NCBI GenBank assembly: GCA_011503125.2
Contig: WWBZ02000013.1
Coordinates: forward strand, 186,001 to 250,000
Direction of reading: 5' to 3'
Origin: Botryosphaeria dothidea
Taxonomy: Eukaryota > Ascomycota > Dothideomycetes > Botryosphaeriales > Botryosphaeriaceae
Length of the DNA stretch: 64,000 bases
Part shown: piece after piece, positions 3,001-42,795 of the stretch
Numbering within the stretch: position 1 is the stretch's first letter
How the letters are laid out: each line of letters begins with the position of its first letter
Notes under the pieces: generated by a model
Databases searched by the model: none
What the model was told of the DNA's origin: nothing
Seen by the model: the letters and a program-made list of their open reading frames with translations, nothing else
Translations under genes and position numbers: made by a program

Positions 3001-6000
3001 TGCGGCAGCAGAGGCTCCGTCAAGCGCGAGTGGAAGCCGTGCGAGACGGCGAGGCGGCGCGTCGACACGCCCGCGGCCTGGAAGCGCGCGTGCGCGGCGT
3101 CGATCTCGGCAGCGGGGCCCACCAGGACGTGGCTGGCGTCCGCGTTGAAGCACGCAACCTCGACCCCTCCACCAACCATCCCGTCCAGCACCGTCGCGAG
3201 CTCGCCATCGACCGACAGCATCGCCCCGCGCTCCGCTCCCCAGCTCTGCTTCATCAGCGCCGCCCGCCCGCACACCAGCCGCAGCCCGTCCTCCAGCGAC
3301 AGCGCCCCGGCCACGGCCAGCGCCGTCAGCTGTCCGAAGCTGTGGCCGATGACGCCGGCAACGCGGAGCCCTCCCTCGATCGACGCCCGCGCACTCGCAT
3401 ACTGCATCGCGAAGAACATGGCATGCAGCCGCACAACGTCGTCGTCGGCCGGAGAGCGCTGGAAGATGGCCGGGTAGATGCCCGGCAGGCCCAGCGTCCC
3501 GAGAGTCGCGTCGACGTGGTCCAGCTCGTCGCGGAGCCTGCCGCAGCTCTCGTACACCTCGCGGCTGAGGCCAACGTAGCTGCGCACCTGGCCGCCGAAG
3601 CACAGCACGACCGGCTTCGTCTGGGCAGCCTGCTCGACGGCTTTGTTGGGCGACGAGAGCAGCTGCAGAAGCTCGGCCGTGGTGGACACAGCAGACGTGA
3701 TGGTGCAGGGGAGGGCGCGGCTCTGCGTCCTGGCCAGGGCGCGGGAAACACTGCCGACGATGGTGTTGCCGTCGTCGTTGCCAGGAGCTGCTGCCTTCTT
3801 GACCTGCGCGCTCAACTCGGCGCAGAAGGCCCGCATGCTCTCATCCGTACCCGCTGACATGTAGATAGGGTACTTCGGCAGCTGCTGCACTTGTGCATTC
3901 TCCTGGCCAGGCGCTTCGCACACGATCATGGCGGCATTGCTTCCGGCTGCGCCGTAGTTGTTGATGCAGGCCACCCGGAAGTCTGCCGACCAGGGAGCCG
4001 TTGCCGTCGGGACAGCCATCTTCTCCGTTGCGCCCACCGCTATCTTTGGGTTCATGGTCTTGAAATTGGCTTGCAGCGGCACCGTCTTCTTCTGCAGCAT
4101 CAGGCAGACTTTGATCAGTGAAGCGACGCCCGCCGCGCCCTCCAAGTGGCCGATGTTGCCTTTGACCGACCCCACCGCGAGTTGCTGTCCATTCGAAAAC
4201 ACCTTCTTGATGCTGTCGAACTCGATCGGATCACCAACCGGAGTTCCCGTGCCGTGCGCCTCCACGTACGAGACATCATCCGGCCGCACTGCAGCGCCGT
4301 TCACGACCTTGCGGTACAGCTGCTGCTGGGAATCGCCGTGAGGGACGGTGATGTATGTGCAGTTCTGGTTCTGATTCACGGCCGAGCTGGCGATCACGCC
4401 GATGACGTCGTCTCCGTCTGCGAGCGCCGCCGACAGCTTCTTCAGCACCACCAACCCTGCTCCTTCGCCGCGGCAGTACCCGTCAGCACTTGCGTCGAAC
4501 GGCTTCGTGGGACCCGTGGGGCTCAGGAAAGACGCTGCTGCCAGATTCTGGTAAAAGTTGGGGTTCGTGTACAGGCTGACGCCGCCAGCCACCGCTTGGC
4601 TGCATTCTCCCAGCTGGATTGCCTTGCAAGCAGCGTCAATGGCCACGGCGGACGAGGAGCACGCTGTGTCGTACGTGATTGACGGCCCGGTCCAGTTGAA
4701 CCAGTGGCTGATGCGGCCGCTCAGAAATGCACGGAGCGTGCCCAGCGATGAGAAGGCATTGGGCTTGTGCGAGGCGACGTTGTCGTTGTAGTCATTGGAG
4801 CAGGCGCCGATGTAGACGCCAACATCGCGCGGACTGCCCTCCTCGGGTCGGGATGAGAAGTACCCGGAGTTTTCCATGGCGGCGTAGGCGACCTGCAGAA
4901 GCATGCGCTGCTGAGGATCCATCGAGGCCGCCTCCCTTCCAGACTTCTTGAAGAATCGATGATCGAAGGCGTCCGCGTCGTCGACAAAGTTGCCCCAGAA
5001 CTTCAGCTTCCCATCGGCGCTCCTCCTGAGCCCTTTGGTGCCAAATCGACTCTCGGGCATTTCGCGGCACATGGATCGTCCCTCGGAAATCACATCCCAG
5101 AACTCCTCGAGGCTGTTCGCGCCGGGAAACTTGCACGCCATACCAACGACGGCAACCGCGTTTTCGGGATACCGCCTACCGGGTGTCGGCGTGACGGTTC
5201 CAGGGCTTGGCAGAGCTGCGGCCGGCTGAACCGTCTTCCATTTGATGACCTTCAACGTGGAGTCTCGACTCAGAGAGGACGGGAATCCGTCGATCAACCC
5301 GAATGTAACGACGGAAGGGTCGCTCGTCTTTATCAACTTCGAGACGGCAGTCGTGGTGGTCAAATACCAGTTTGAGACATCGCAAAGAATGTCTCGCAGC
5401 AGGAGCTCATGGAGCGGCCTGCCTCTCAGAACCTGTGCGTCGGCGTTCGAGCAGACGGGGACCAGCAGATGGCTTGCAGATGGGAACGTCAGGCCGGGCC
5501 GAGCAGCGCAGAGATCGGCAATCTTCTGGTAAGCCCCAGTATTCTCGTTCGAGTGGCAGCGGCCTTCGATTCCGGTAGGTTTCGCAGTGATTCCACGGCC
5601 AGCCAGCGCGCGCAAGAGTGAGTCCACCGACGCTACAGGAGCAGTGATGTTGACGTCGGTAGAGTCTCGGATGACGGAAATGTAGGCCTTTGGTCCAGAA
5701 TCAATAACAGCGACGCAGTGAGAGTATGAGGACAACTTACATCGGGGTAATTCTCCAAGATTTGAGTAGCCTGGTTGTGACCTTCTGACGAGCCCCAGCG
5801 AACGGCCAGGGATGAGGTTGAGCGGCCGCGGGCCGCATCAAGATCCACGTAGGCTCCCACACACGTTGCCAGGCGGACAGCAACCCCTCCAAGAACACCG
5901 ACGTCTTGCTCCGTCCGCGAGGCAGCAACGGCAACAGCGCTGAGCAGGCCGATGCAGAAGCCTTGCACGCCTCCGACACTTACCGCCTTGATCACCTCGG

Positions 6001-6352
6001 TGTGAGGCAATCCCTGCTCATTGTGTTCGATGAAGTGAAAGTATTGCAACAGCTGGACAATGACCGTGAGCGGCATGCAGCTGATGTTCGGCGAAGCGCC
6101 GGACTGAGTTCGTGTGTGGCCATGGCTGATCCAGTCGTCCAGCTCCGCCAACGCTTCGGCGCCACGGACAACGCGCAGCTCCGGGTCGCGTTGGACCATT
6201 ATATGCCACAGATCGCCCAGCTCTTTGATCGAGCAAAGCAGACTTCGAAGTCGTGGGTCCAGCAGGAGCATTTCTCGAAGCTGGGCCATGACTTCCCGCG
6301 ACGGCCATGGTGCCTGAGGCCCAAAAAGGAGCATGGAGGGAGAAGAAGTCAT
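1..6352 (-). CDS. Non-reducing polyketide synthase SAT-KS-AT-PT-ACP-CMeT (C-terminus off window)
   Basis: Iterative PKS expected to build and cyclise an aromatic polyketide on its ACP, with methylation from S-adenosylmethionine. The start at 6352 gives MTSSPSMLLFGPQAP, typical of a SAT domain. One intron (5688-5740) joins exon 1 to an exon open to base 1, about 2,100 residues visible. Order: SAT with GFCIGLL (catalytic Cys), KS with TACSSSAV (Cys near 546), AT with GHSFGQ (Ser near 988), product template with HAVLAEP (His near 1311), one ACP with GIDSLMV (Ser near 1690), and a methyltransferase with ELGGGTGGTT near 2010. The releasing domain (TE or reductase) lies outside, so the product is unknown. 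This order is known from methylated orsellinic acid synthases. It is divergent from the A-T-R gene, which suggests co-regulation. Confident in the class, not the product. Confidence 0.95.
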
Positions 6353-6831
6353 TGCGATGATGGGCAAAGGAAAAGGACACAAGGTGGGTAGCGATGGAGA
6401 GAAGAGGAAGGCACGAGGCGTTGAGTGTCTCTCCCAGTCTGTTGAAAAGAAAAATTGCGATGTTGACGATGGCCGACGTGAAGAGCACTACATTCCAAGA
6501 ATCAAATACTACTTCAAGAAACCCCAAAGCGAAGCTGAAAATAGCAGCAAACGTTCACTGAAAGGCATTGCCGAGAGGACCCGACATCCAGTCTGGAAGG
6601 AGTGTATGCACGCAAGCAAGCGACCCTGCAAGCATGCTGCCCGGACCCGACGGCGTTTGCCGCACCACCACCAAGGCTGCAGTCCACTCGGGTCATGCTG
6701 ACGGATCCTTCTAATCCTCCATGTGTCGGACCCTGTCCACCGAAACGACCGGAATCTTTATGGTATTGCTCGTTCCGCTCATTAACCAGCGCGTTTCGCG
6801 TCTGCCTTAACCCGCCCTGACGCTGCGCACC
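6353..6831. promoter_or_regulatory. Divergent promoter between the PKS and A-T-R genes
   Basis: This 479-bp gap separates two start codons that point away from each other, so it must hold both promoters. At 6727-6742 there is an inverted CGG-N10-CCG pair, the kind of palindrome a Zn2Cys6 dimer can bind; a regulator of that class lies 4 kb downstream. That link is inference. Short open frames here (for example 6514-7020 minus) overlap the start of the A-T-R gene and look spurious. Confidence 0.5.
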
Positions 6832-25496: not shown

Positions 25497-25974
25497 TGTT
25501 ACGGCGCAGCCTCCACAGGTTGAGGAAGTTAAGGATCAGCCCCGCAGGGAACAACAGAAGTCGGAGTTATAAGGATCCGAGGTTACGTGACTCTCGCGAT
25601 CAGTTGGACCTACCCGCTTAGTTGCCAAGGCCAACTAAGCAGATAGAGCTAACTAAGCTGGTACGCTCAGTTAGCAACCCTCGATTAGTTGCCAAGGCCA
25701 ACTGATCGCGCTCTATTAACTAAGCACATAGATTGTAGACAATCTCCTACGTATATATAAACCACACTCCTTAGATAGCTTTAACCTTTATAGTTAACTT
25801 TATAATAGAATTTGGACTCTATTAGTAATAAGGCCTTCGCACGTAGTGCTTAGTCTCTAGTCGTCTACTCGTTCCTTACGTACCTCTTCTTATACCCACT
25901 TAAGGAAAACCCTTCGACAGGTTTCCACCCTCTTTAGTATTTGGATCCTCAGAGGCAGAGGCCCGCTCGTTATA
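25497..25974 (+). repeat. 5' LTR of the chromovirus
   Basis: 478 bp, TGTTACGG to GTTATA; the canonical end CA is mutated to TA. More AT-shifted than the 3' LTR. Confidence 0.93.
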
Positions 25975-28900
25975 CTTTGACCACCATCCTTGCAAGGAGA
26001 GGGACCCTTTTAGAAACGAGTTCATTAGGTTAAGTATTACCCCGCCTAACGCGTTTAGGGAAAGTATACGATGGCACCGGGATCTTAGATAGATGTCGAC
26101 CTAATGGAGGGCCGCGCTAAGGGTGCTTAGGGGCGTGCTCCGCCCGCGCTATAAATAGAGCCTACTCGAGAAGAGCTCTAGGCACTTATTTAGAAATAAA
26201 AAGCCTAGATCGAGCGCCTGTTGGCGTATTAGACAAAACGGAGCGCTACTAAGGTTAAAGTAGCGGTACCCGAGAAGTTCGATAGGGATAGGAAGAAGCT
26301 CTAATCCTTCCTACTCTAGATACAACGCTACCTCTAGTTTAACTAAGTATAATTCGATAACGACGCCGAGGAAGTACTCTTCGTATTAACCTACCTTAGA
26401 GGAACGGTAGAGGCATAGATAGAACCATACCTTCGCGATTACCTAGCTAACGAACACTCTCTCGAGAAGAGACGGGTAAAGACTAAGGAAATCTTCGATA
26501 CCTACACGGGATTCGCAGATAACCTTAGGGCTACTTTTAACGATCGGGACGAAGTCCGTAAAGCCTCTAACGATATTATAACCGTTAGATAGATAGGATC
26601 TATAGCTGTCTACGCAACCAAGTTTTAATAGCTTATAGCCTACCTCGAATGGTTAGATAAGACTTTCCGCGACCTCTTCTATAAGGGCCTAAAGGACGAA
26701 GTTAAGAAGAACATAATTACTTACGAATATCTACCTACCTTTTAGAAGATAGTAGACCTTACGTCTTAGATCGACGGTCGCATATACGAATAGAAGATAG
26801 ATTCTCGATAATCTAATACTTCGAAGCCACGCCGTGAAAGAATAACCCTCGAAGGCGGAGACGCTATAACCCTCGACGCGGCTAATAGATAGGATTCTAA
26901 GAAGGGTAATAATAGTTATAATAATAAGAAGCCTAAGGGACCTAACCCGAACTAGACGGATAAGCAGAAATAGCGCTATAAGGATCGACTCTATATTACC
27001 TGCGGTAGTAATAAATACTTCTCTCCTAAGTATTCGTAGAACCCTCGTAGTAAGAAGGATAATAAGTAGACTTCGAGCGCTCAGCGTAAAGCGTCGGTTA
27101 TATCTCGCCGAGATAACTACGATACGCTATACTAGACAGCCTATTACGATAACGGCTGTTAGACGCATTAAACTAGCAAGGATATCTCTAAATAGTACCC
27201 CTACGAACCTCGAAACTTCGGAATAATAACTAGGAACGAAGAAGTTATCGAAGCCGACGATATTATCGATAGTTTCCCTCTAGACGACGAACTTGTTAAC
27301 AGCGAAATAGGAGAACTATACGAGAGTACTAGTAAAACGCAGTTAGATAATATACCTATACTATTAGATAAGCTAGATACCCTCGTCTCGCTAGAAGTTC
27401 TCGCCGAAAGATACGGCATTAGCAACTATCTACGGGACGAATGGGGCAATCTTAGCTAAATAATCTAGATTTCGCATTAGAAAAGCATCGCGCTTACGGT
27501 TATTTGGGGATGGCGTTAGAATACCCTTTAGGAAACCCGAATTAAATAAGACGGAAAAAAGTACGAACTCCTAGTAACTAAAGAAACGATACTCGTCGAA
27601 CGCTACTACTAAGGAACCTTAGTACGCGAGTAAGTAGACTACGACTCCCTCCGGGAGCTAGTACGGATTCTCTACTAGTACGGCACGGTAACGATCTAGT
27701 ATCGTATACTCTAGTAGATTCCGGATAAGAAGCTTAATTAACTAACCTTTAGATATTAAGTTCGAAAAGATAAAGTCTACTGGCGAAGGAAGCAGAACGC
27801 CGATAAATAGACTAACTAGAAGCAAGTATATCTATAAGTTAACGAATAGGAAGACTATATACATAGCGAAGTCTACGGCTACCCTATACTAAAAAACTAG
27901 ACGGCCCTACGGTAACGGGACTAACCTAGGGGCTATAGTCTAGGTTTCTTTATATAGTATCGCGTATATCGAAAACGGAAACTCTTACCGGACTAAACCT
28001 ATAGAAATAGTTTAAGATATAGGGAATACTTAACGGAGTACCTACTAGAATTCTAATCGATATAGGATTAAGCGGAAATTTTATCTATAACGAGCTTGTA
28101 TAGAAGATAAATATCCCGTACCGTAAGAAATAGGAACCGTATTCCCTTAGTAGATTCGACGGATCCTAGGTAGCCTACGGAGAAGGATAGGTAAAGATAG
28201 AAACGGAGGAAGTAATCCTCCGAATAGGGAATTATTAGGAATAGATTTCCCTCGACGTTTAACGTATTCCCGGGCACGATATTATTCTAGGTATGCCCTA
28301 GATCCGGATATAGAAACCTATCTTCGACTTCGAAGAAGGAGACTCTATTATCTTTCGGGAGAAGCTCGAGGACCTCCTACGAAAATAAGGATTATAGAAG
28401 GAGAATAGGTTATTAGATACCCTTCGAAAACTCCTATTAATATTAACACGGGAAGTAGCTAGTATAAGGCCTAAATATAGTAACCGTATAGGCAACTCCG
28501 ATAGTAGTATAAGTTAGTACTAGGACTACGACGTAAGTAGCGAAGCCTCCTTAGTAAAATATAACCCTATTATAGGAATAAGCCCTACTAAGCGAAACGA
28601 TATTCCCGACTTAAGCTACGACTCTAGCTATAATAGCGTAAGGCCTAGTAACGGTAGTATTAACGGCAATAATAGCGTAAGATCTAGTAACGGTAGTATT
28701 AACGGCAACCTTAAGAAAGGTATAAGATAGGACTAGGATAGTAGCGTGCGAGACGCCGCTTCCTCGGTAAAATATAGTACCTTAAGCGGAGTAAGACTAA
28801 CTAAGTCTAGTATCCCCGACGAATAAGTATAGTATATATTACGAAGAACTACGAGGAAAAGGTATAAGGCTAAGAGTAAGGCTTCGCGTAAGTAATTAGT

Positions 28901-30298: not shown

Positions 30299-30446
30299 TG
30301 TTGGAAATCACGTGTTTTGCATATTGCTTTTGCAACACCAGATAGCTTAGTCACTCACTTACGTATATAAGGAGGGTGGGCCACCTACGCCCTTCCTCCT
30401 CATGCCAATCATCAATAGATCATCATTGTTCATCAACATACCAACA
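30299..30446 (+). repeat. 5' LTR of copia 2
   Basis: 148 bp, TGTTGGAAATCACGTG to ACCAACA, with TATATAAGG near 30,362. Related LTRs lie at 41,768 and 57,065. Confidence 0.95.
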
Positions 30447-30459
30447 GTTATGAGCCCGG
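30447..30459 (+). promoter_or_regulatory. Primer-binding site of copia 2
   Basis: GTTATGAGCCCGG abuts the LTR and matches the initiator-tRNA anticodon arm, as in copia 1. Confidence 0.8.
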
Positions 30460-30754
30460 GATCACTTCCAAAACTCGTTATCCATCGTTTGATCTCTGTA
30501 TAAGCGTCTCATACGCTTATAACGTTCTCTCTGCGGCATCCAGAAGAACACTGTGTTGTTGCACCCTGCTGTAACACACTGCGACCGTGCGACGGCTTCC
30601 CTCCACGTGTCATTTCATCAACAGTCATCACGACACAGCTATTTGCCTCAACATCGAGCATCTCAAGTGTCTGATACACGTTCCTAGCTAGCTTTAACCC
30701 TTTTGGTTAGCTGTACGACGTCAACTGACGAATAGCACCTATTCGTCACCCACC

Positions 30755-33700
30755 ATGTCGTCTTCGAAGCCAATCATCGTCCTCAAGTCTTCGCAAGACT
30801 GGGATGAATGGTTCTTCATCGTCCAATCGCGTGCAAAGAAGGCTCGCTTATACGACTACATCGATCCAACCAAGGACTCACGTCCGCAACAACCAATCGC
30901 GCCCACCAAGCCTCCTCTACCAACAGGCAACATCACCGACGCGGATCGTGAGGAGCATAAGTGGAAGCGCGAGGACTATAAGGAGGATAAAAAGGAGTAC
31001 GACAGGCAGATGCGAGAGCTCAATGACCTCTCATCACTCATTGAAGACTCAGTGTCTCAGCCACTGCTGCCGCTCCTGCGCAAGATCGAGGACTCTCATC
31101 CCTATGCGCAGTTGCGCGCTCTACAAGCTCGACTCCAACCTTCCGTCTCTACACAACAGGAGTTTATTCTCAACAAGCTCCGCGAGCTTGAGAAGCCTCC
31201 AACTACCCAGAGCACTGAAAAGTGGCTCACACAATGGGAAGAGTGTGTATTCAAAGCACGCTCTCTTGGCCTCTCTGATGTCGAAGGCTCTCGAGGAGTA
31301 AATGCATTCCTCAAGCCTATCATGCAACACGACTCAGAATACGCTAGCCCTATCCTTCGTGAGCTGCGACTCGGTACTAAGACGCTTGACGTTTCAGATG
31401 TCATTGTCGATTATCGTGAGCATGCTCGCCAGAAGCAAGCGCTCATAACGAACAAGACTCATGCGACCTTCGCAGCTACTCTACGAGGCGAGGAGCAGCC
31501 GCAGAAGCCTCCTAAATGCTTATGTGGACTCTTACACTGGTACTTCCAGTGCTTCTATCTCAATCCGAACGCGCCCAACCGTCCTGCCGACTTCAAACCA
31601 AACAAGAAGGTCCAGGATAAGATCCTTAAGCTCATGAAGAATGATAAGATCAAGACGCAAGTTGAGAATGCACTCAAGCGCGGTACACCGCCAACACCTC
31701 ACACACAAGGTAACAAGGGTAAAGGCAAGGAGCCTAAGCCTGACACGCTTGCAAATGATGACAATAGTGATGACGAGCAAGGATCTATTAAGTCCTTCCC
31801 AGCCGTTGTTGCGCAGTCATTTGCTACGCACCGAGACTCGCGTCCAACCACGTTGGAGCTCTCATGGATCGCAGACACTGGTACCACTCATCACGTGTGT
31901 AACAGATATATGCGCAAAAGGTTTATCAAGACACGCAACGCAGGTCCAGATGACTTCGTGATCTGCGGTAACACGCGTGTGCCTATTAAGAGCTTCGGGA
32001 ATGTCACAGTCAATGCCCGCAACGGAAAGAAGAGCAAGGTTATCACCCTTCGTGATGTAGCCTACGTCCCAGCATTCATGGGCAACTTAGTCTCCATTTC
32101 TAAGTGCAATGAGAAAGACGTTCATATGGACACTAAGAGTCTTCGACTCTACAAGGACGACACTACAGTGTGTGTCCTTACTCCGTCTGAAGGACAGTTC
32201 TTTCTTGAACTACACCAAGCAGAGTCCGTACCAGCCATTACGAGTGCTGCGACCACCCGTAGTCTCCCAGCTGAACAGTGGCATGGAGTCTTTGCTCATG
32301 CCAACTACCACGCTATCAAGGCGTTGCTCACAGCTGTTACCGGCGTAGAGTTCACGAACGACGTCGTGCCTGTTCACTGCGACACCTGCTCGCGAGCAAA
32401 AGCTCATCAGCTTATTGCGCGAGACTCATCACCAGAGGAAGCTCGCAACGAGTCATTCTTCCGAGTCTCATTTGACCTCATCCAGATGACGCCCGCCTTC
32501 AATCAACACGAGTGGATCACTCATATCGAGTGTATAAAGAGCAACTATGTCTTCACCCGCACCCATATGCTCAAATCAGACTGCAACACGCTCATTCTCG
32601 ATATTCTAAGTATGATCGAACGTCGCTTTGACGCTCTCACTGCGTTCTTTCGAACTGATGGCGAAAGATCACTTAACACCGCGTTTAAGGCTGAACTTAA
32701 GCGAAGAGGAATCACAATAGAGGTCTCAGCACCCTATACACCTGCTCAGAACGGACATGCCGAGAGAACTGGTCAGTCTATTATCATCAAAGCACGAGCA
32801 ATGCGTATCGGGGCAAACCTCCCTGAACGCCTATGGCCAGAGACAGTCCTGGCAGCAACGTACATACACAATCGGACGCCAAGTAAAGTCCTCAAGTGGA
32901 AGACGCCCTTCGAGCTTGCTCATGGCATTAAACCAAACGTAGCTCACATGAGAGTCTACGGATGCAAGGCCTACGCCCTTAACAAAACCATCCCGCGTAG
33001 TAACAAGCTCCAAGAACGAGCCCTCGTTGGCTATCTTGTTGGGTATGACTCCACCAACATCTACCGGATATGGTATCCACCAGGGGACCGTATCATCCGC
33101 TCAAGAGACGTCAGTTTTGACGAGTCATCAAAATACTCACCAGATGAGCAAGAGCAGTATCAAGAAATCGAGGATGTAGAAGAGGAGCCTCAGGAGGTAA
33201 TTCCTCGCATCCGTCTGGGCTCTGAGGACCTCATCACGTCAGATTCGTCGTCCAGTGAAGATGAGGAGGTTACTCATGAGCAAGCCACTGATATAGAAGA
33301 ACAACCTACTTCGTCATCAGATGGACAACAATAAGGCATACTGCCTGATAAACCAGATGTACAACACACTCAACTACATACACCATCGCCGTCCACCACG
33401 GACAACAGCATACCACACCCACCAAGCGATGACGTCTTGCCGTCACCTACTCTCAGAGACTCGCACACCTCAGGGGGTGAGGAAGACGAACAACAGCAAG
33501 AGGGACGCCTTGGTCGTCTCCTCCCTGGTCAATACGATACTGAGCCTGACCCAGGAGCAGCACGGGGCAATCGTGCACCCCTTGCAGCCAATATCAACGC
33601 GGACCCCAACCCGAACCTTATCATCGAAGGTCCAAGGAATCGAAGAAGAGCTGCGCATGCCGCGAAGGTTATCAGTAACGCTCACTGTGAGCAGACCTTT

Positions 33701-35412
33701 CTCGCCGCGAGCATGTGTGCACTGCTTAAACACGCTCCTACGGGTAATCACGAGCAAATATCTCAACCTACTGCACACGAGGATCCTCCACCCTCATATC
33801 AGTTAGAGGAGCTTCCTCCTCTGCCACGCATTCATCGGGACGACCTTCCGCCCGAGCCTCGTTACTATAAGGACATCCTCAAACACCAACTCAAGCCTTA
33901 TCTCTTTCAAGCACTCTACCGTGAGCTGCAGGAAGGCAATGGTAAGGGGGTGTGGATCGTTGTAGACGAGGATCAAGCACGCAAGGCCAACAAAGAGGTC
34001 ATTCCTCTTACATGGGTCTTCAAATACAAATTCGATGAGAAGGGATATCTCACTAAGATCAAGGCACGAGTATGCGTACGAGGTGACCTCCAAGTCTCCT
34101 ACCAAGACACATATGCGGCTACCCTTGCCTTCCGTATCTTTCGCACGCTTATGGCGATTGTCTGCGCATTCGACCTCGAGATGTGGCAATACGACGTCGT
34201 TAATGCCTTTCCTCATGTCCCTCTCGATCAACCAACCTTCTGCCGAGCACCAGAAGGCATGACACTTCCTTATAGGAAGATCTTGTTGCTTAAGAAAGCT
34301 CTCTATGGGCTTAAAGAGTCGCCAGCGTTGTGGCAAAAGCACTTTCAAGCCACGCTCAAAGACCTGGGACTTGAGCCTGTGCCAGATGCTCCATGTCTCT
34401 ACGCAAACGAGCACCTCTTTGTGTTCTTCTTCGTAGACGATATTATCATGGCCTTTCCTAAGAAGGATGAGCCATTCGCGCACGTATTCGAACAAGACCT
34501 CTTTCAGCGCTACGAGATGCGTAAGATAGGAGAAGTTCAGTGGTTCTTAGCTTTACGAATCGTCCGTGATCGAAGTAAGCAACTGCTATGGCTATCACAG
34601 GAGTCATACCTTACCAGCCTTAGGGCTAAATATAACGTCAAAGAATCATCGGTTGCCACGCCTCTTCCGATAGAGGACCTACCTACCCCAAATAACGAGG
34701 CTCATGCAACACCTCAAGACATCCACACGTTCCAGAGCAAGATGGGATCTGCCCAGTTCGCTGCTATTAGCACGAGACCTGATATAGGCCACGCCTGCTC
34801 AGCCCTCTCTGCGTATTTGACGAACCCTTCTAAGCGACACCTCTATCTTGCACACCGCCTCCTAGAATATCTCGTAAACACGAAGGACCTCGCAATTATG
34901 TATAACGGCAACGTGGCAAATGATCAACGCATCTTCGTGCCTAGCAGTGATGCATCCTTCGCAAATGACACGGCCACACGCCGTAGTTACCAAGGATTAC
35001 TCATAATGCTGTTCGACGGACCCGTGGACTGGAAAGCCTCCAAGCAACCAACAGTGACGACCTCAACAACGGAAGCAGAGCTCCTCGCTCTATCAGAGAC
35101 TGCTAAGCAAGCATACTGGTGGAAACGCTTCTTCAGAGGCATCCAATTTGAGCCAGGTCACCTCGTTCAGATCGAGTGTGACAACACACAGACGCTCCGC
35201 CTTATGGAAGAGAACGTCGGAAGCTTGTTACGAAGCTTCGTCACGTTGATATCCATCACCACTGGCTTAGGCAAGAGACTCAAGCAGGCAACGTTCACTT
35301 CAAATGGACACCAACAGCTCAGATGATCGCAGACGGTCTCACAAAGCCGTTAACAAAGCAAAAGCACGCCCACTTTGTGCAAGGCTTAGGCCTCTCATTA
35401 CTACAACAGTGA
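30755..35412 (+). pseudogene. Copia 2 gag-pol polyprotein with one stop and one frameshift
   Basis: Almost intact. The frame opens at 30755, meets TAA at 33,332-33,334 in the variable linker after integrase (fits CAA to TAA), and continues in the same frame. Near 35,221 one A is missing relative to the related copy at 41,431, which shifts the frame inside RNase H. The original C-terminal frame (DGLTKPLTKQKHAHF) resumes out of phase and ends at 35,410-35,412. Order: gag; knuckle CLCGLLHWYFQC; protease WIADTGTTHH; integrase with FRTDGERS and NGHAER, so catalytic Asp and Glu are kept; reverse transcriptase with FFFVDDIIMA; RNase H with SSDASFAND. Confidence 0.94.
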
Positions 35413-35554
35413 TTATAAGCGTACACACCGCTTAAACCAGATTGTCACCATTTTATTTATATATTTCGGTAATCACGTTCCTTTCACACTGTTAAAGGTC
35501 AACACTAAGCAGATTATCGCGCACTGCCCGATCGGACACCACGCGAAGGGGGTG

Positions 35555-35702
35555 TGTTGGAAATCACGTGTTTTGCATATTGCTTTTGCAACACCAGATA
35601 GCTTAGTCACTCACTTACGTATATAAGGAGGGTGGGCCACCTACGCCCTTCCTCCTCATGCCAATCATCAATAGATCATCATTGTTCATCAACATACCAA
35701 CA
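35555..35702 (+). repeat. 3' LTR of copia 2
   Basis: 148 bp, reads the same as the 5' LTR base for base, followed by CTTAA. Confidence 0.95.
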
Positions 35703-37467
35703 CTTAACTATAATACTTATAATAAAGAGCTCTTAGCTATCGTCTTAGTATTTAAGTAATAGAGATACTATCTTAAAGGAGCTAGCTATTAGATAGTAGT
35801 ATATTACGATTATTAAAACCTTACGCGCTTTACTACGACTAAGAAGCTAAACCGACGATAGGTTCGCTAGTTAGAAGAAATAGCCTCCTACGATTTTAAG
35901 ATTATATATAGAAAAGATATAGATAACGCCGCCGCTGACGCGCTTAGTAGAAGGGTAGACTATATAGAAGAACGAATCGAGCCGTACCCTATAGTGTTCG
36001 TAGTAGATAGCGATAGATCGCTTACCCTTACTAGACCGTCTTTCCTAATACTTCGCATCGAGTTAAACCTATAGTATTAGACGATCCGAGAAGTATACGC
36101 ATAGGACTCCTTCGCGTAGGAACTTTTAGCGCTTAAGGACGACCCGCGTATTACTCGAGATAGAGAAGGAACGCTTCTCTTTAAAGGATTAATCTATATC
36201 CTGGTAAAACTACGAAAAGTACTAGTTAAGGATATATACGAAGCACCCGCGTATAGATATTAGGGTATCGATAGGACAACCGAAAGAATTACACGAAACT
36301 TCTACTTTCTAGGGTTACGGAAGATAGTCTAGCGTATAGTCTCGTAATATAATCTTTATATTAGAAGCAAAGCCGCGATATACGCTCCGTACGGATAACT
36401 ATAACCCCTAGAAGTTCCCGAACGACTATAGTAATTAGTTACGCTAGACTTTATTACGAAGCTGTTATAGTCTAAAGACTCGCTTACCGGAGTTAAGTAC
36501 GACTTAATCCTAGTCTTTATCGACAGACTTACGAAGTACGCTTACTTCTTACCCTACCTTAAAGCATCGAATATAGAGTAGCTAGCTTATACGTTCCTCC
36601 GATATATCTTCGCGGATTACGAAATACCGGAAGAACTAGTTTTAGATAGAGATAAGCTAATACGTTCTAAATTCTAGCAAACGCTTATGCGTTAACTTAG
36701 GGCTAAGAATAAACTTTCTATAACCGTATACCCGTAAACGGATAGTTAGACAGAACGGATAAACCGGACTCTCGAACAATATCTCCGCTATTTCGTTAAC
36801 TACCTACAGGACGATTAGGCTACATAGCTACCTATAGCATAGTTCGCCTATAATAGCGCTAAATAAGAGTTAACCAACGTATCCCCGTTCTTTACCAACT
36901 ATAGATTCGAACTAGACGCGTATAGAGAAGCTATTCTAAGTCGAAAATTGGCCTAGTAAGGTGTTCTTAAAGCCGAACAGCTAAAAGAACTATATAGAGC
37001 TATTAGTCTCGACCTTAAGCACGTACGAATTATAATATCTAAGTACTATAATAGACGGCACTAGACGGCACCGAACCTAAAGAGGGGGGATAAAGTATAC
37101 CTCCTTACAAAAAACATCAAATCGAAGCGACTAAGCGACAAATTGGATTTTAAGAAAACCGGTCCATTCGAAATTTTAGAAAAACTCGGAAACGTTACGT
37201 ATCGACTCAAATTGCCAACAACGACACGAATAAATTCCACCTTTCACGTAGTATTGCTCGAGCCAGCACTAGAAAACGCTATAATCCTAGAAACTCTAGA
37301 AGAGATAATCCTAGAAAACCCAGATGCCGAAGAAAACGAATACCTAGTCGAGAAGATCTTAGACTGCAAAAGATTCGGATATCAGCTCAAATATCTTATT
37401 AAATAGGAAGGATACGGAAATGAGGATAACTAATGGGTACCCAAGGACGATATATATTTAGATCTCG

Positions 37468-38332
37468 TCACAGAATTCCACCGTCAAAATCCCGACCTCC
37501 CACGGAAACGAGGTCGTCCCCGAACGAGAACGGCGAGAGACCCTTAAGATAGGGGGATAAACGGGCAGAATTTACAGGCTTAGGAGAGCATAGAGACTTC
37601 GCACTAGCTACAGGCTCGCCGGCAGACTCGGTAGACTTAGCCACATACGGCGCAGCAAGACCTACCGTCTCGTGACGTGGCCGTTTTAACGCGGACGGAC
37701 CCTCAGAATTCTTAGGGTTAGGAGCATACCCCTCATCCTCGGCCAACGCAGCCAGTAGCTCCTCCGCCTCCCGACGATTATGTTTATATAACGCGTTAAG
37801 ATTATCGGACTTAGCAAGAAGAGCCCGGAAACCTCTCTCCTCTAATAAACGCTGGTTATCCCGTAAACGCTTTAGACGGGCCGCAATAGTCCTAAGCTCT
37901 TTCTCTTAACGACGTAAGCTTTCTTTATGAGCCAAACGAGCCTTCTCCTGTTCCGCGTGTAAACGGTCCCGCTCCTCTTACAACCGATCTAGCTCGGCTA
38001 GAGAAGTAAGGAATTTCTTATAAGCTTTAGCCTCCTTGGCCTTCAACTTCTCCTGCTCGCGACGAAGGCTACGGGCTAGGATATAGGTTAACACACGCGA
38101 CCGGGGAAAAGAATCAAAACTTACCTCTAGCAAGCGATAAACCCTTCGCGTCGTATATTGTAAAACCCTTCGCGAGACAAGCACCATAGCGAGCGCGACC
38201 CGGTAGAACCTTATAAACCACGCTATGCAGCTCACACTTAAAATAAGAACGTTCCGCGGGTAACGGGATAGACGCTACTAGATCTGCTAGACGCTGTCGC
38301 TCCTTAGTAGTATCCCGCTTACGCTTAGACAT
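37468..38332 (-). pseudogene. Antisense spliced coiled-coil gene inside the chromovirus
   Basis: Runs opposite to gag-pol, between the chromodomain and the 3' LTR. The start at 38332 gives MSKRKRDTTKERQRLADLV. A textbook intron (38,076-38,124: GTAAGT donor, TTAAC branch-like site, CTAG acceptor) joins exons 38332-38125 and 38075-37468 into exactly 272 codons. The N-terminal half has one compact region (SYFKCELHSVVYKVLPGRAR). The second half is a long Lys/Glu/Arg/Leu-rich coiled coil, then a Ser/Pro-rich tail ending GGRDFDGGIL. Two in-frame TAA codons (after AELDRL and after KESLRR) fit RIP of CAA. The 3' end overlaps the polyprotein tail by 80 bp. I recognise no family; a helper, regulator or captured gene are all possible. 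Confidence 0.75.
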
Positions 38333-38429
38333 GATGGACTTACAGGAAAAGAACAATCCGAGAAGAATCCGCAAGAAAATAGACAACGCGGAAGAATCTT
38401 CGGGCCGAAGATCCTTAAGGGGGGGATAG

Positions 38430-38907
38430 TGTTACGGCGCAGCCTCCATAGGTTAAGGAAGTTGAGGATCAGCCCCGCAGGGAACAACAGAAGTCGGAGT
38501 CATAAGGATCCGAGGTCACGTGACTCTCGCGATCAGTTGGACCCACCCGCTCAGTTGCCAAGGCCAACTGAGCAGATAGAGCTAACTGAGCTGGTACGCT
38601 CAGTTAGCAACCCTCGATTAGTTGCCAAGGCCAACTGATCGCGCTCTATTAACTGAGCACATAGATTGTAGACAATCTCCTACGTATATATAAACCACAC
38701 TCCTTAGATAGCTTTGACCTTCGTGGTCAACTTTACAATAGAATTTGGACTCTATTGGTAACAAGGCCTTCGCACGCAGTGCTCAGTCTCTAGTCGTCTA
38801 CTCGTTCCTTACGTACCTCTTCTTGTACCCACTCAAGGAAAACCCTTCGATAGGTTTCCACCCTCTTTGGTGTTTGGATCCTCAGAGGCAGAGGCCCGCT
38901 CGTTACA
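38430..38907 (+). repeat. 3' LTR of the chromovirus
   Basis: 478 bp, TGTTACGG to GTTACA, with both canonical ends intact. Confidence 0.93.
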
Positions 38908-39024
38908 CTATATAGGTAGAAAGAATAAGAAGAATATACTCTAAAATCTCTAAGGAGATAGAAGAGGTAGACCTCTTTCTTTTTAAACTATAGAGCGGTA
39001 GTCCCCCCTATTCGGTTAGGATAT
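38908..39024 (+). mobile_element. Host LINE, part 2
   Basis: Short stretch between the chromovirus target duplication (CTATA, 38,908-38,912) and the TRIM-like element (GATAT, 39,020-39,024). Same AT-rich RIP character as parts 1 and 3. Confidence 0.75.
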
Positions 39025-40055
39025 TGTCAGACTAGAAAATTATGTGATATTCCGGCGGATCCGGCCGCCAGTGTAGCATAAGAGGGGCTCCCCCCACTAC
39101 CCTCTACAGATAGCCAGCGACTGCACAATTAATCACTTTTCTCAAAGTTCGACAGTTATGAGCCCGGGAGCGTTAAGACTCCGCGATAGCTGTTCGCAGT
39201 CAGCTCACCACTTCGTGGGGCCACTGGGGCCACCATTACCTCTTCTGCTCAACTGAGCACTCTTTCTGACGCGCAACTGCCGTCACCTCTGCGGCTTCTG
39301 CCCGGTTACAGGCTACGGCGACTGGACCAACCCTTTACGGCTTCTGCCCGGTTACAGGCTACGGCGACTGGACTAACCCTTTACGGCTTCTGCCCGGCTA
39401 CAGGCTACGGCGACTGGGTCAACTACTCAACTCGGAGCCACGCTGGCTACCACCTCTACTCGGATCCAACTAGATCAACTCTACGGCTTCTGCCCGGTCA
39501 CAGGCTACGGCGACTGGACCAACAAGTACTACTGCTTCGGCACGGCTACAGGCTACGGCGACTAGGCCATTACTCTACTCGGAGCCATCTGGGGCTACCA
39601 CTACTCGGAGCTACCTTGGCTACCTCTACCTCTACTTCAATACGGCTACGGGCCATCACGGCGTCTGGGCTAATAAACTCTTCTTAAGGCTATCTCCGGG
39701 CCACTACTTCAATACTACGACCAACAATTTAACCTTCTCAACGACCACTACAAGCAACAATCCTAATAAATACTTAGTAATACTAGTTAGGATTGGCACA
39801 AGCTCACACGGTATATTGTAGTTGGATTACATTCTGTTCCTCTGATCTACCTGGCTATGTGGAGGAAGTTCAACACCACGGGTATATCACGACCTTCCTA
39901 ATGCGTACAGCTCGTGAAGGGGGTGTATCAGACTAGAAAATTATGTAATATTCCGGCGGATCCGGCCGCCAGTGTAGCATAAGAGGGGCTCCCCCCACTA
40001 CCCTCTACAGATAGCCAGCGACTGCACAATTAATCACTTTTCTCAAAGTTCGACA
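39025..40055 (+). mobile_element. Non-autonomous LTR element (1,031 bp), derivative of copia 1
   Basis: Two 130-bp LTRs (39,025-39,154 and 39,926-40,055), target duplication GATAT (39,020-39,024 and 40,056-40,060), primer-binding site GTTATGAGCCCGGG at 39,155 and polypurine tract GAAGGGGG before the 3' LTR. There is no coding frame. The interior holds several copies of a unit with CGGCTTCTGCCCGG followed by a CTACGGCGACTGG block, tandem with about 47-bp spacing near 39,290-39,420. The leader of copia 1 has one such unit, and the sequence before the 3' LTR also matches copia 1. LTRs of the two elements share only their ends. It probably depends on a copia for its enzymes. Confidence 0.9.
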
Positions 40056-41269
40056 GATATCTACCTTAGAGAAGGAAGCCGAAGCTAAAGCATACGCTAA
40101 GGCCCTCCTAGAAGCCCTAAATAGTTAAGTATCTATATACTCCGACGCCTTATAACTTCTAATAGGAAAAGGGATAGGAATAGGAATAGGAATACTAGAC
40201 CTTAGCTAATCTCGAGATACTATATAATAAGAACTAGTTAGAAACTACGGTCCTAACTACCTCGTTTATAATGGCGAACTAGAAGGTATTATAAATGCCC
40301 TTGAATTTGCTAGTAAACGAGGATATAAAAACCGAGAAATAAGAGTCTATGCGGATAACTAGGCCGTACTCTTACGGCTATAAACCCTAGCTAATACTCC
40401 TAGCTAAGATTAATAAATCCGGGTAGTTAAAGTAGTAAAAATCCTACAGGATAAGGGGAACAAAATCTCTCTAGAATGGGCACCTAGATATAAAGATATC
40501 CTTAGGAACGAGGCCGCGGATAAACTCGCAAAAGAAGCTACTAGACTACCTATATCAAGCTCTAAAAATAGCCTAGCCTTCTATAGAATGCAGCTAAAGA
40601 AGGAGCTTTATAAGGAGTGGATAAAGAAGCTTAAAAATACCCTAGCCTCTACCTATAAGGAACTATACGGCTATTAAGTTAAACGGAAACTAAAACCCCC
40701 TCTAAAGGAGCGGGAATTAGCCTCCGTCTTTTACTAACTAAAGATAGGATACGGATACTTTAGATCCTATCTCTTTAGGTTTAAATACGCCGGAACCGAT
40801 AGGTGCCTATACACGAATACAGCAAAATAAATACCTAGATATCTTTTACTAAAATGCCTAAAATACTCCTACGAAAGAAGGAGTATTAAGGATATACTTA
40901 GAAGAGAATATCTAGACCTAAAGGAGCTTCTTACCTCGATAAAAGGAATATCTAGTACGCTAGATTTTCTAAAATAAATATAGATATCTACACGGAGGTG
41001 GTATCTAGAAACTAGCTCGGCGGAGCTCTAAATAAACGTATACCTACCGTATTTCCTTTTACTTTCCTTATATACTTCCTCTTTACTTCCTTTGGCTATA
41101 AGCCTATTTAGGCGATAGACGCTATACCGTTCACTATACCTAAAAAGCCTACCTTTACTAAAAGAGGTATTAACCTTCTATAGCCACGAGTTCTAGAAAC
41201 TCCGTCTTTAATAGTCTTAGGCTGAAAAAAAGGACGTAAAACTAAATAAATAAATAAATAAATAAATAA
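40056..41269 (+). mobile_element. Host LINE, part 3 (RNase H to 3' tail)
   Basis: RNase H region readable through stops: YNGELEGIINALEFA near 40,270, REIRVYADN near 40,340, KISLEWAPRYKDILRNEAAD near 40,470. Then a Cys/His-type region (LLKCLKYSYERR) and the 3' end with an AAAT-type repeat tail at about 41,243-41,269. The tail differs from the TATC tail of the LINE at 14,882, so this is another LINE family. Confidence 0.8.
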
Positions 41270-41915
41270 CGACCTTAACAACGGAAGTAGAGCTCCTCGC
41301 TCTATTAGAGACTGCTAAGCAAGTATACTAGTAGAAACGCTTCTTTAGAGGCATCTAATTTAAGCTAGGTTACCTCGTTTAGATCGAGTGTAACAATACG
41401 CAGACGCTCCGCCTTATAGAAGAGAACGTCGGAAAGCTTATTACGAAGCTTCGTCACGTTGATATCCATCACTACTAGCTTAGGCAAGAGACTTAAGCAG
41501 GCAACGTTTACTTTAAATAGACACTAATAGCTCAAATGATTATAGACGGACTTACAAAGCCGTTATTAAAGCAAAAGCACGCCCACTTTATGCAAGGCTT
41601 AGGCCTCTCATCACTATAATAGTGATTATAAGCGTATATATCGCTTAAACCAGACTGTTACCATTTTATTTATATATTTCGGTAATCACGTTCCTTTCAC
41701 ACTGTTAAAGGTCAATACTAAGCAGATTATCGCGTACTACCCGATCGGATATCACGGGAAGGGGGTGTGTAGGAAATCACGTGTTTTGCATATTGCTTTT
41801 GCAACACCAGATAGCTTAGTCACTCACTTACGTATATAAGGAGGGTGGGCCACCTACGCCCTTCCTCCTCATGCCAATCATCAATGAATCATCGTTGTTC
41901 ATCAACATATCAACA
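41270..41915 (+). mobile_element. 5'-truncated copia 2-family fragment with 3' LTR
   Basis: Matches the RNase H end and 3' untranslated region of copia 2 (41,270-41,767), then a 148-bp LTR (41,768-41,915) starting TGTAGG. It carries RIP-type stops but keeps the A missing from copia 2 (GGAAAGCTT at 41,431). It directly adjoins the LINE tail. The LTR reads the same as the inverted solo LTR at 57,065 and shares its differences from copia 2. The 3' flank is ATTAT. Confidence 0.88.
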
Positions 41916-42348
41916 ATTATCAAATCTGATCGGTCGGGATCAGGGAATCTCGTTAGGAAGTAGGGTGACAGACGCCACAGGCTGGTGGAAATAAGCATAA
42001 CTCAGCATCACAGTGGGACCCCGCATCTGGCTTCGCGTATTGAGCCTCACGAATGGGTCGACTTTTGCAGGATTCAGCTTTGACAAGATTTGCCACATAT
42101 TCGGATCTGGGGTGTGTGCCCAAACGTATGAATATCAATATTGCTTCCAGATACCGTGCCCGTCGAGCTGTAGTTCAAGGTCGGGGTTTGCAATTCTAAT
42201 CGTAGGATTTTTGAACAACGTTACTTGATCGACACTTGGTGGCTGACTCCTCAAAGCAGGGGGTTCACATAAAGCTTTGAGCCTGCTTTGTTGCCTGGCT
42301 GATGTTAACTGTGTAGCTCGGCAGGAGGCTCACGACAGGATATCCAGG
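41916..42348. other. Unassigned sequence between the copia LTR and the TRIM
   Basis: Non-repetitive looking and with no RIP shift. Frames at 42,013-42,228 and 41,953-42,138 are short and carry no signature. It is the first sequence inside the proposed inverted segment. Confidence 0.4.
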
Positions 42349-42795
42349 TGTCAGAATATAAGGCAGATTAGCACGCACTGGTAACAGTGCGGCGTCGTAC
42401 TTTTGCAGTTCGACAGTTATGAGCCCGGAATCACTTCTGCCGCGGTAGTCTAGTGGTAGACTTGGACACAAAACGCGCGCATCATCCATACGCACCATCA
42501 CGGGGTTTGGCTGTGCCCCACACAATCCACGTTTCAAGGGGCTTGGTGTTCCCCAATCACAACAACGACCTTGTGGTGCCGGGGTCCGTGTCAGTCGCAA
42601 GTAGGCCATGCGTTCGAATCACAGCAAGATCAACCATGCCTCACCACAGAGAGAGACTATTCCTCCACTACAACGACATGAGATCTCTCCACCTGTGCCT
42701 CAAGCACTTCGCCACAGGTGAGGGGGTGTGTCAGAATATAAGGCAGATTAGCACGCACTGGTAACAGTGCGGCGTCGTACTTTTGCAGTTCGACA
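42349..42795 (+). mobile_element. TRIM element (447 bp) with a tRNA-like interior
   Basis: Two matching 67-bp LTRs (42,349-42,415 and 42,729-42,795), target duplication CCAGG (42,344-42,348 and 42,796-42,800), primer-binding site GTTATGAGCCCGG at 42,416 and polypurine-like GAGGGGG before the 3' LTR. The interior has a perfect A-box consensus TAGTCTAGTGG (42,446-42,456) in a tRNA-like context and a perfect B box GTTCGAATC (42,612-42,620), 166 bp apart. No coding frame. Non-autonomous, probably mobilised by one of the copias. Confidence 0.88.

Follow-up and report, generated by a model that had tools for sequence, protein, structure and literature searches.

A spliced antisense gene in a chromovirus of Botryosphaeria dothidea as a candidate regulator of the element's own LTRs

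A retrotransposon of the plant-pathogenic fungus Botryosphaeria dothidea carries, on the strand opposite gag-pol, a reading frame interrupted by a well-formed intron, which raises the question of whether this frame is a gene of the element and what such a gene might do. The locus lies in a stretch of 64,000 nucleotides, hereafter the window. The host element is a Ty3/Gypsy chromovirus, with a gag-pol comprising reverse transcriptase, integrase and a C-terminal chromodomain between LTRs; its 5' LTR begins at 25497 and its 3' LTR ends near 38908. Its gag and pol frames are readable in the related copies L061 and L062, the domains being named by eye, not by profile search. The relevant features, in window coordinates, are as follows.

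25497..25972, plus strand: chromovirus 5' LTR, sharing 95% identity with the 3' LTR in a 300-nt comparison
25598..25725, no strand: array of eight half-sites in the 5' LTR, the same as that in the 3' LTR
37380..37548, plus strand: 3' end of the sense pol with the chromodomain, its frame overlapping the 3' end of the antisense gene
37468..38332, minus strand: antisense gene in two exons, 271 codons, ATG at 38332, TGA ending at 37468
38125..38332, minus strand: exon 1, 208 nt, basic N-terminus and six-cysteine domain
38076..38124, minus strand: intron, phase 1, 49 nt, GTAAGT...GTTAAC...CCTAG
37468..38075, minus strand: exon 2, coiled coil, KRPRHE basic motif and acidic/aromatic C-terminus
38430..38908, plus strand: 3' LTR of the chromovirus
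38531..38658, no strand: array of eight half-sites G(A/C)T(C/T)AGTT in the U3 of the 3' LTR, in the order > > < < > > < <
38685..38696, plus strand: TATA-like box of the sense promoter in the 3' LTR copy, about 27 nt below the last half-site

An earlier note, made from the sequence of this locus, had proposed that the minus strand holds two exons joined by a 49-nt intron, between the chromodomain and the 3' LTR. The exon-intron structure was borne out, with an exon of 208 nt and a second at 37468-38075 that together encode 271 residues. The gene does lie upstream of the 3' LTR, but the sense pol frame overlaps it. The window copy of the gene is RIP-damaged: several Cys positions in exon 1 read Tyr, and exon 2 contains two in-frame TAA codons. 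These two stops are as the note described; their small number, however, is not in itself evidence of selection. The family-A antisense protein (see below) has no tryptophan and six glutamines, so few of its codons are convertible and RIP makes few stops, and copies more heavily RIP-hit than the window copy contain up to 12 stops in exon 2. We thus rejected the argument that few stops prove selection.

We searched the genome (51.7 Mb, 78 contigs) in six frames and obtained 116 matches, a part of which was inspected, so that the search provides a lower bound. The copies fall into families A, B, C and D, which are mutually close, G (L053), F (L043, L049-L052 and L058), H (L044 and L057) and E, which consists of L041 and its relatives and is a more distant chromovirus. 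Family A is a sister family to the window element in the same genome, and 20 of its copies are young, with 99.8% or more identity to L019 across the region. The antisense gene is open in 18 of these 20 copies, with 275 codons and a 47-nt intron; a stop interrupts the gene in one of the other two, and the frame is altered in the second. The five full-length young family-A copies measure 8012 nt each and show 2 to 8 base differences from the copy used as a yardstick.

The intron lies at the homologous place, in phase 1 and with a length of 45-52 nt, in all nine copies that we spliced, which represent seven families (A, B, C, D, E, F and G); the donor of L041 is RIP-damaged, and the H-family copy was left unspliced. 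Relative to A, the antisense protein is 88% identical in B, 74% in C, 75% in D, 62% in G, 49% in F and 36% in E. This identity resides mostly in the C-terminal part, the cysteine domain and coiled coil being variable. A chromodomain peptide is encoded on the strand opposite the antisense gene in 54 of 59 loci, with no match in 5 (L039 and L058 overlap). A donor-like GTAAGT also occurs approximately 5-15 nt upstream of the antisense start codon in the least damaged copies of each family; the site lies at window 38333-38345 and at the corresponding place in L041, L053, L058 and L044, and some RIP-damaged copies read ATAAGT here. If this donor were joined to the acceptor of exon 2, the cysteine domain would be left out.

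In the protein database, the antisense protein matched uncharacterised proteins of B. dothidea and Macrophomina phaseolina. One of them (P0001, a hypothetical protein of B. dothidea with 217 aa) matches the family-A product with 100% identity along its whole length, and another (P0002), predicted from a different B. dothidea record, has a stop-free and closely similar exon 2, which the gene prediction has joined to a separate gene. A search with the F-type N-terminal part returned none of 1630 candidates at E 0.01. No host relative was seen in the inspected part of the 116 genome matches, and we found no sign of a captured host gene, one of the functions that the earlier note had considered.

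In less damaged copies (L061-L065; family A), the sense pol frame extends beyond the chromodomain and remains open over the greater part of the antisense gene. The antisense frame could thus be a by-product of the overlapping sense frame, and we evaluated which strand is coding. RIP produces transitions only, so transversions were counted. A and B differ by 22 transversions at positions covered by both frames; in the antisense frame, 13 of these leave the amino acid unchanged (17% expected, P about 1e-5), compared with 2 in the sense frame (22% expected). Between A and two C copies and D, comparisons that share a common branch and are not independent, the synonymous counts in the antisense frame were 15/44, 15/44 and 13/44 (P 0.006, 0.005 and 0.04), and those in the sense frame 6/44, 6/44 and 7/44, with no excess. 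Changes at the first, second and third antisense codon positions numbered 6/3/16 for A-B (P 0.0055) and 13/12/28 for A-C (P 0.016); the pattern was weaker for A-D (14/14/26, P 0.08), and C-D, with only 7 changes (1/2/4, P 0.52), was uninformative.

In addition, the antisense frame was open in 0 of 2000 synonymous shuffles that held the overlapping sense protein fixed. The openness of the sense frame likewise exceeds what the antisense protein by itself would predict (P 0.0095 in A and 0.008 in E); this and the long open stretch in less damaged copies speak for a by-product. However, the sense protein does not account for the open antisense frame in the shuffles, an excess of synonymous transversions is seen only in the antisense frame, and the intron and cysteines recur across families. 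We consider it extremely improbable that the antisense frame is a by-product, and as the sole explanation this is refuted by the shuffles and the transversion pattern. We read the data as purifying selection on the antisense gene, the overlapping pol tail being apparently kept open yet otherwise free to change; in L061-L065, the two strands look like a coding overlap with both frames kept open. Together, the open copies, the selection on the antisense frame, the intron in seven families and the chromodomain opposite in most loci uphold the earlier description of a spliced antisense coiled-coil gene of a fungal chromovirus. Within this genome and the protein database, the comparison that the note had called for shows that both the antisense place opposite a chromodomain (54 of 59 loci) and the intron (9 copies, 7 families) recur.

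What kind of protein does this gene encode? Exon 1 specifies the cysteine pattern CX2CX6CX8-9CX2CX7C in A, B and F. C30, C40, C49, C52 and C60 are shared without exception by A, B, F and G, and the G copy has Tyr at the sixth cysteine position. The pattern of Zn(II)2Cys6 proteins is CX2CX6CX5-12CX2CX6-8C. A, B and F fit this spacing; family E departs from it, with 16 residues between Cys2 and Cys3, as do the C, D and G copies, in each of which at least one Cys position reads Tyr. Pfam Zn_clus (PF00172) scored 9.9 bits with the A piece and 8.6 bits with the F piece, far below its gathering cut-off of 21 bits, and was not listed for B, G or P0009, a relative whose translation runs through the intron. 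Pfam scans of the antisense proteins listed nothing significant, with no bZIP family at E up to 10 and neither DUF1985 nor DUF287 among the matches. A profile search against the PDB gave four matches at E 0.23 or worse, none of them a Zn-cluster factor. Since the Pfam scores were below the cut-off and the PDB search returned nothing relevant, we use "Zn2Cys6-like" as a label for the exon 1 domain and do not assign it to the Zn(II)2Cys6 family.

In the AlphaFold model of P0009, residues 82-148 form a coiled-coil helix at high confidence, and the cysteine part has a pLDDT under 65, mostly under 50. The last 25 residues of the antisense protein include 5 acidic and 1 basic. As predicted from the sequence, the layout (basic N-terminus, six cysteines, long coiled coil, KRPRHE motif and acidic aromatic C-terminus) is that of a dimeric fungal transcription factor.

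Candidate targets for such a protein are present in the LTRs. In both LTRs of the window element, the eight half-sites of U3 follow each other at start-to-start steps of 18, 19, 18, 12, 18, 19 and 18. Family A has eight GCTCA sites at steps of 18, 21, 18, 11, 18, 21 and 18; the C and D arrays are the same as each other, and B follows the same plan when RIP-type variants are allowed, with one or two extra matches. Family G has seven GTTCA sites at steps of 8, 19, 8, 11, 8 and 19, the outer step being 10 nt shorter, approximately one helix turn. Other families have other sites: four of TGTCGCC type in F (steps 19, 16 and 19), six of GATCYA type in E (13, 16, 13, 13 and 13) and TGCC/GGCA sites at steps of 14 or 28 in H. 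The half-sites are thus GMTCA in A-D, GTTCA in G, TGTCGCC in F, GATCYA in E and TGCC in H, and their geometry is fixed within the arrays.

The half-sites were first spotted by eye and the E, F, G and H stretches were placed around them, so the P values for U3 are guides only. With this limit, when the commonest 5-mer of U3 was compared with that of shuffled sequence, A, C, D and G gave 0/1000 and B 0.006; F (0.125) and E (0.276) were not significant, and the value for H (0.021) was driven by the ATATA of the TATA region. The commonest 6-mer gave 0.01 for E, 0.293 for F and 0.067 for H. As controls, the R-U5 regions gave 0.24 or more with 5-mers, except E (0.045). Inverted pairs of 6-mers in U3, read as guides in the same way, were enriched in A (0.005), B and D (0/2000 each), C (0.016), E (0.0185), F (0.001) and G (0.0065) and were not enriched in H (0.11); of three control stretches, two had no pairs and the R-U5 of A had four (P 0.01). 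Column conservation did not differ significantly between half-site cores and spacers (Fisher P 0.08 for A-C, 0.08 for A-D and 0.36 for A-B), partly because the cores shift by one base in the alignment. The analysis of spacing was chosen after seeing the data, following this null column-by-column footprint.

We then located the differences between family A and the window element by means of transversions. Across gag-pol (250-nt bins from 1000 to 6750), we counted 15 in 6005 nt, 0 to 3 per bin. The 5' part of the antisense gene contains 55 in 482 nt (26/234 and 29/248), and the bins with the U3 array contain 26/244 in the 5' LTR and 24/242 in the 3' LTR. The sequence between the antisense and U3 peaks is nearly unchanged, with 1/70 in the antisense 5' UTR and 1/95 at the start of U3. 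The antisense gene and the array thus diverge jointly, as two separate peaks. A further island lies at the start of gag (18/250), in the N-terminal coiled-coil-like part of Gag (window 26160-26240 compared with L061, L066 and L067). It separates A from B, C and D, and hence does not follow the antisense type.

Such a distribution could also arise if template switching had swapped divergent gene-plus-LTR pieces between old families; the gene would then be real, the pairing would reflect neighborhood and the co-evolution would be illusory. In the four comparisons listed, no transversion occurs in the antisense gene beyond L019 position 2055, the last 320 nt of exon 2 being free of them, and this abrupt end resembles a recombination break. 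Breaks are also seen in L049 and L058, immediately before the ATG, and recombination between LTRs was invoked by the authors who described the crapaud element of Podospora (PMC10787394). However, a single imported piece should diverge evenly, which does not agree with the nearly unchanged 5' UTR and U3 start, although these could be otherwise constrained, and a mosaic leaves the fixed geometry of the arrays unexplained. We consider it very unlikely that a mosaic accounts for the pairing.

We also asked whether each type of gene is accompanied by its own type of U3. Of 54 gene matches that were paired with a U3, 52 were distinct, as L039 and L058 represent a single locus; for five E loci, no U3 lay within range. 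Counting C and D as one, gene and U3 types agreed in 46 of the 52 pairs (25 A, 7 B, 10 C/D, 2 H, 1 F and 1 G), the F and G agreements being by construction, as these loci supplied the reference U3. Three pairs (L050-L052) had only a 51-nt match to the TATA region and could not be assigned a type. The remaining three were mismatched, at two loci: an F-type gene with an A-type U3 in L049 and L058, and an A-type gene with an H-type U3 in L058. The latter locus, which overlaps L039, is rearranged, with an F-type gene beside an A-type LTR followed by an A-type gene beside an H-type LTR, and the exons of this A-type gene are separated by approximately 300 additional nt. A strict correspondence between gene type and LTR type was therefore not borne out. 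Moreover, gene and U3 are only about 100 nt apart and most A copies are near identical and not independent, so their agreement is largely linkage.

Stronger arguments for a pairing are the two separate divergence peaks, the fixed geometry and a graded relation between protein and array, rather than the agreement of types. By eye and across few families, a small change in the cysteine domain (A-D) accompanies changed flanks of the half-sites, a larger change (G) accompanies one changed core base and the shift of one turn, and the largest change (E, F and H) accompanies other half-sites.

The U3 arrays might instead be bound by a different host transcription factor in each family, and the antisense protein might serve, for example, in assembly, integration or RNA binding. 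The three mismatched pairs (L049 and both pairs of L058) are in line with this, as is the N-terminus of Gag, an island of divergence that does not follow the antisense type. The U3 of crapaud also varies strongly, with no antisense gene reported (PMC10787394). On the other hand, each family would need a new host factor, and the joint divergence around a conserved stretch would be left as coincidence or linkage, so we regard host factors as an unlikely explanation. The recombinants themselves fit both possibilities, since they may use another family's regulator in trans or carry a protein unconnected with U3.

Among the functions that the earlier note had listed (a helper, an anti-silencing factor or a captured host gene), none was singled out; the evidence now favors a regulator of the element's own LTRs. 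We consider it probable, with moderate confidence, that the spliced antisense gene encodes a dimeric, sequence-specific regulator of this kind, probably an activator. A dimer of the antisense protein would bind the palindromic half-sites in U3; bound to the 5' LTR array, it would raise transcription of gag-pol, and bound to the 3' LTR array, which lies upstream of the antisense ATG at a distance of approximately 200-330 nt, it would raise that of its own gene. A single array would thereby serve two divergent promoters, that of gag-pol in the 5' LTR and that of the regulator in the 3' LTR, as suggested by the protein layout, the palindromes and the position of the array between TATA box and antisense ATG. 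We infer from these features that the gene is transcribed from a start in the 3' LTR and spliced, and that its product binds DNA, dimerizes on the half-sites and activates rather than represses.

Gal4-type Zn(II)2Cys6 factors likewise act on one array between divergent promoters. The antisense protein resembles the fungal Zn(II)2Cys6 factors in its cysteine spacing in A, B and F, the coiled coil that follows and the palindromic half-sites; it differs from them in the score below the Pfam cut-off, the longer Cys2-Cys3 loop in E and its antisense location in a retrotransposon.

As the cysteine/coiled-coil part and the array change together, and gag-pol and the C-terminus stay the same, the families may have formed separate circuits. 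We tentatively extend the proposal to a switch for each lineage, in which an antisense dimeric DNA-binding protein would co-evolve with a fixed palindrome array, giving insulated, self-amplifying circuits, and recombinants would borrow the switch of another family.

The same anatomy and joint divergence would be expected if the protein bound the U3 arrays yet acted as a brake on copy number, like HBZ at the 5' LTR of HTLV-1, or lifted silencing, like VANC. HBZ turns off the activating potential of CREB (PMC3736048), and VANC21 strips silent marks without necessarily activating transcription (PMC5735166). The acidic, aromatic C-terminus looks more like an activation domain, and we judge repression or anti-silencing improbable.

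How does the proposed LTR regulator compare with known systems? Antisense genes had been noted before in some plant Gypsy elements, and this is indeed the case for Grande, RIRE2 and Retand with TRP28 (Vicient 2025, PMC11963269). In Retand elements, antisense ORFs lie between pol and the 3' LTR and are probably DNA-binding (Vicient 2025, PMC11963269). The B. dothidea chromovirus also has an antisense ORF between pol and the 3' LTR in most copies; Retand, however, is a non-chromovirus plant lineage, and here a chromodomain is present and the genome is fungal. The plant ORFs resemble the present gene in being found in recently active copies and in being thought to bind DNA and regulate the element, as proposed here (PMC11963269). 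The differences are the fungal chromovirus as carrier, the six-cysteine/coiled-coil protein, the conserved intron and the matching palindromic arrays in U3.

HBZ and other antisense genes of HTLV type are also spliced, lie upstream of the 3' LTR, their likely promoter, and encode a coiled-coil protein of nuclear type. HBZ, a bZIP factor, acts on CREB proteins, whereas the B. dothidea protein has no bZIP match; the host kingdom and element group also differ. The VANC proteins of Arabidopsis VANDAL elements are element-encoded, combine conserved with highly variable parts and evolve together with their target motifs (Hosaka 2017, PMC5735166). The repeated non-coding motifs of VANDALs differ between related elements and have been shown to evolve with VANC; the corresponding targets are putative here. 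In contrast to the chromovirus, VANDALs are DNA transposons (MULEs), and VANC contains DUF1985/DUF287 and acts by loss of DNA methylation (PMC5735166). The best reading, by analogy, is that the antisense gene would work like HBZ, the plant Retand antisense ORFs and VANC and is a member of none of these groups.

The crapaud subfamilies of Podospora differ mainly in U3 upstream of the TATA box and are alike in the internal region, and they are subject to RIP; diversifying selection or recombination were considered as causes of this divergence (PMC10787394). The main text of that report never uses the word "antisense". A survey of fungal and plant elements mentions an additional ORF, giving neither function nor orientation (PMC2864245). 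The open-licence literature of PubMed Central that was searched, mostly as titles and beginnings of abstracts, contained no account of such a gene in fungal chromoviruses. As far as this literature goes, the kind of gene is already known; what is new is that it occurs in a fungal element, encodes a protein of the cysteine-cluster type and is accompanied by matching U3 arrays. The fungal version of the plant and retroviral arrangement brings an explicit candidate target, namely, spaced LTR palindromes that differ between families along with the putative DNA-binding part. If our proposal is correct, it would offer a reason why fungal LTR subfamilies can differ mainly in U3, as in crapaud, and would provide natural pairs of protein and DNA specificity. 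Retrotransposons, like a plant DNA transposon for which this is known, would then encode regulators that co-evolve with their targets.

Several other features of the locus were recorded. Immediately before the polypurine tract, at window ~38385-38412, lies a near-perfect palindrome, ATCTTCGG-CCGAAGAT, which was found again in the families read, E included. The chromovirus is split at 30299-35706 by a lightly damaged copia element with 152-nt LTRs that are 99% identical, which is younger than the chromovirus, and a fragment of a related copia copy is present at 41269-41919. Directly downstream of the chromovirus 3' LTR, at 39027-40060, a TRIM-like element has 133-nt terminal repeats that are 98% identical, internal tandem-like GC-rich units and a TTATGAGCCCGGG stretch after its first repeat. 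A miniature LTR element of 448 nt occupies 42348-42795, with CCAGG on both flanks and identical 68-nt terminal repeats that start with TG and end with CA. After its first repeat, it carries a TTATGAGCCCGG stretch, as in the copia element; the stretch in the TRIM-like element is the same.
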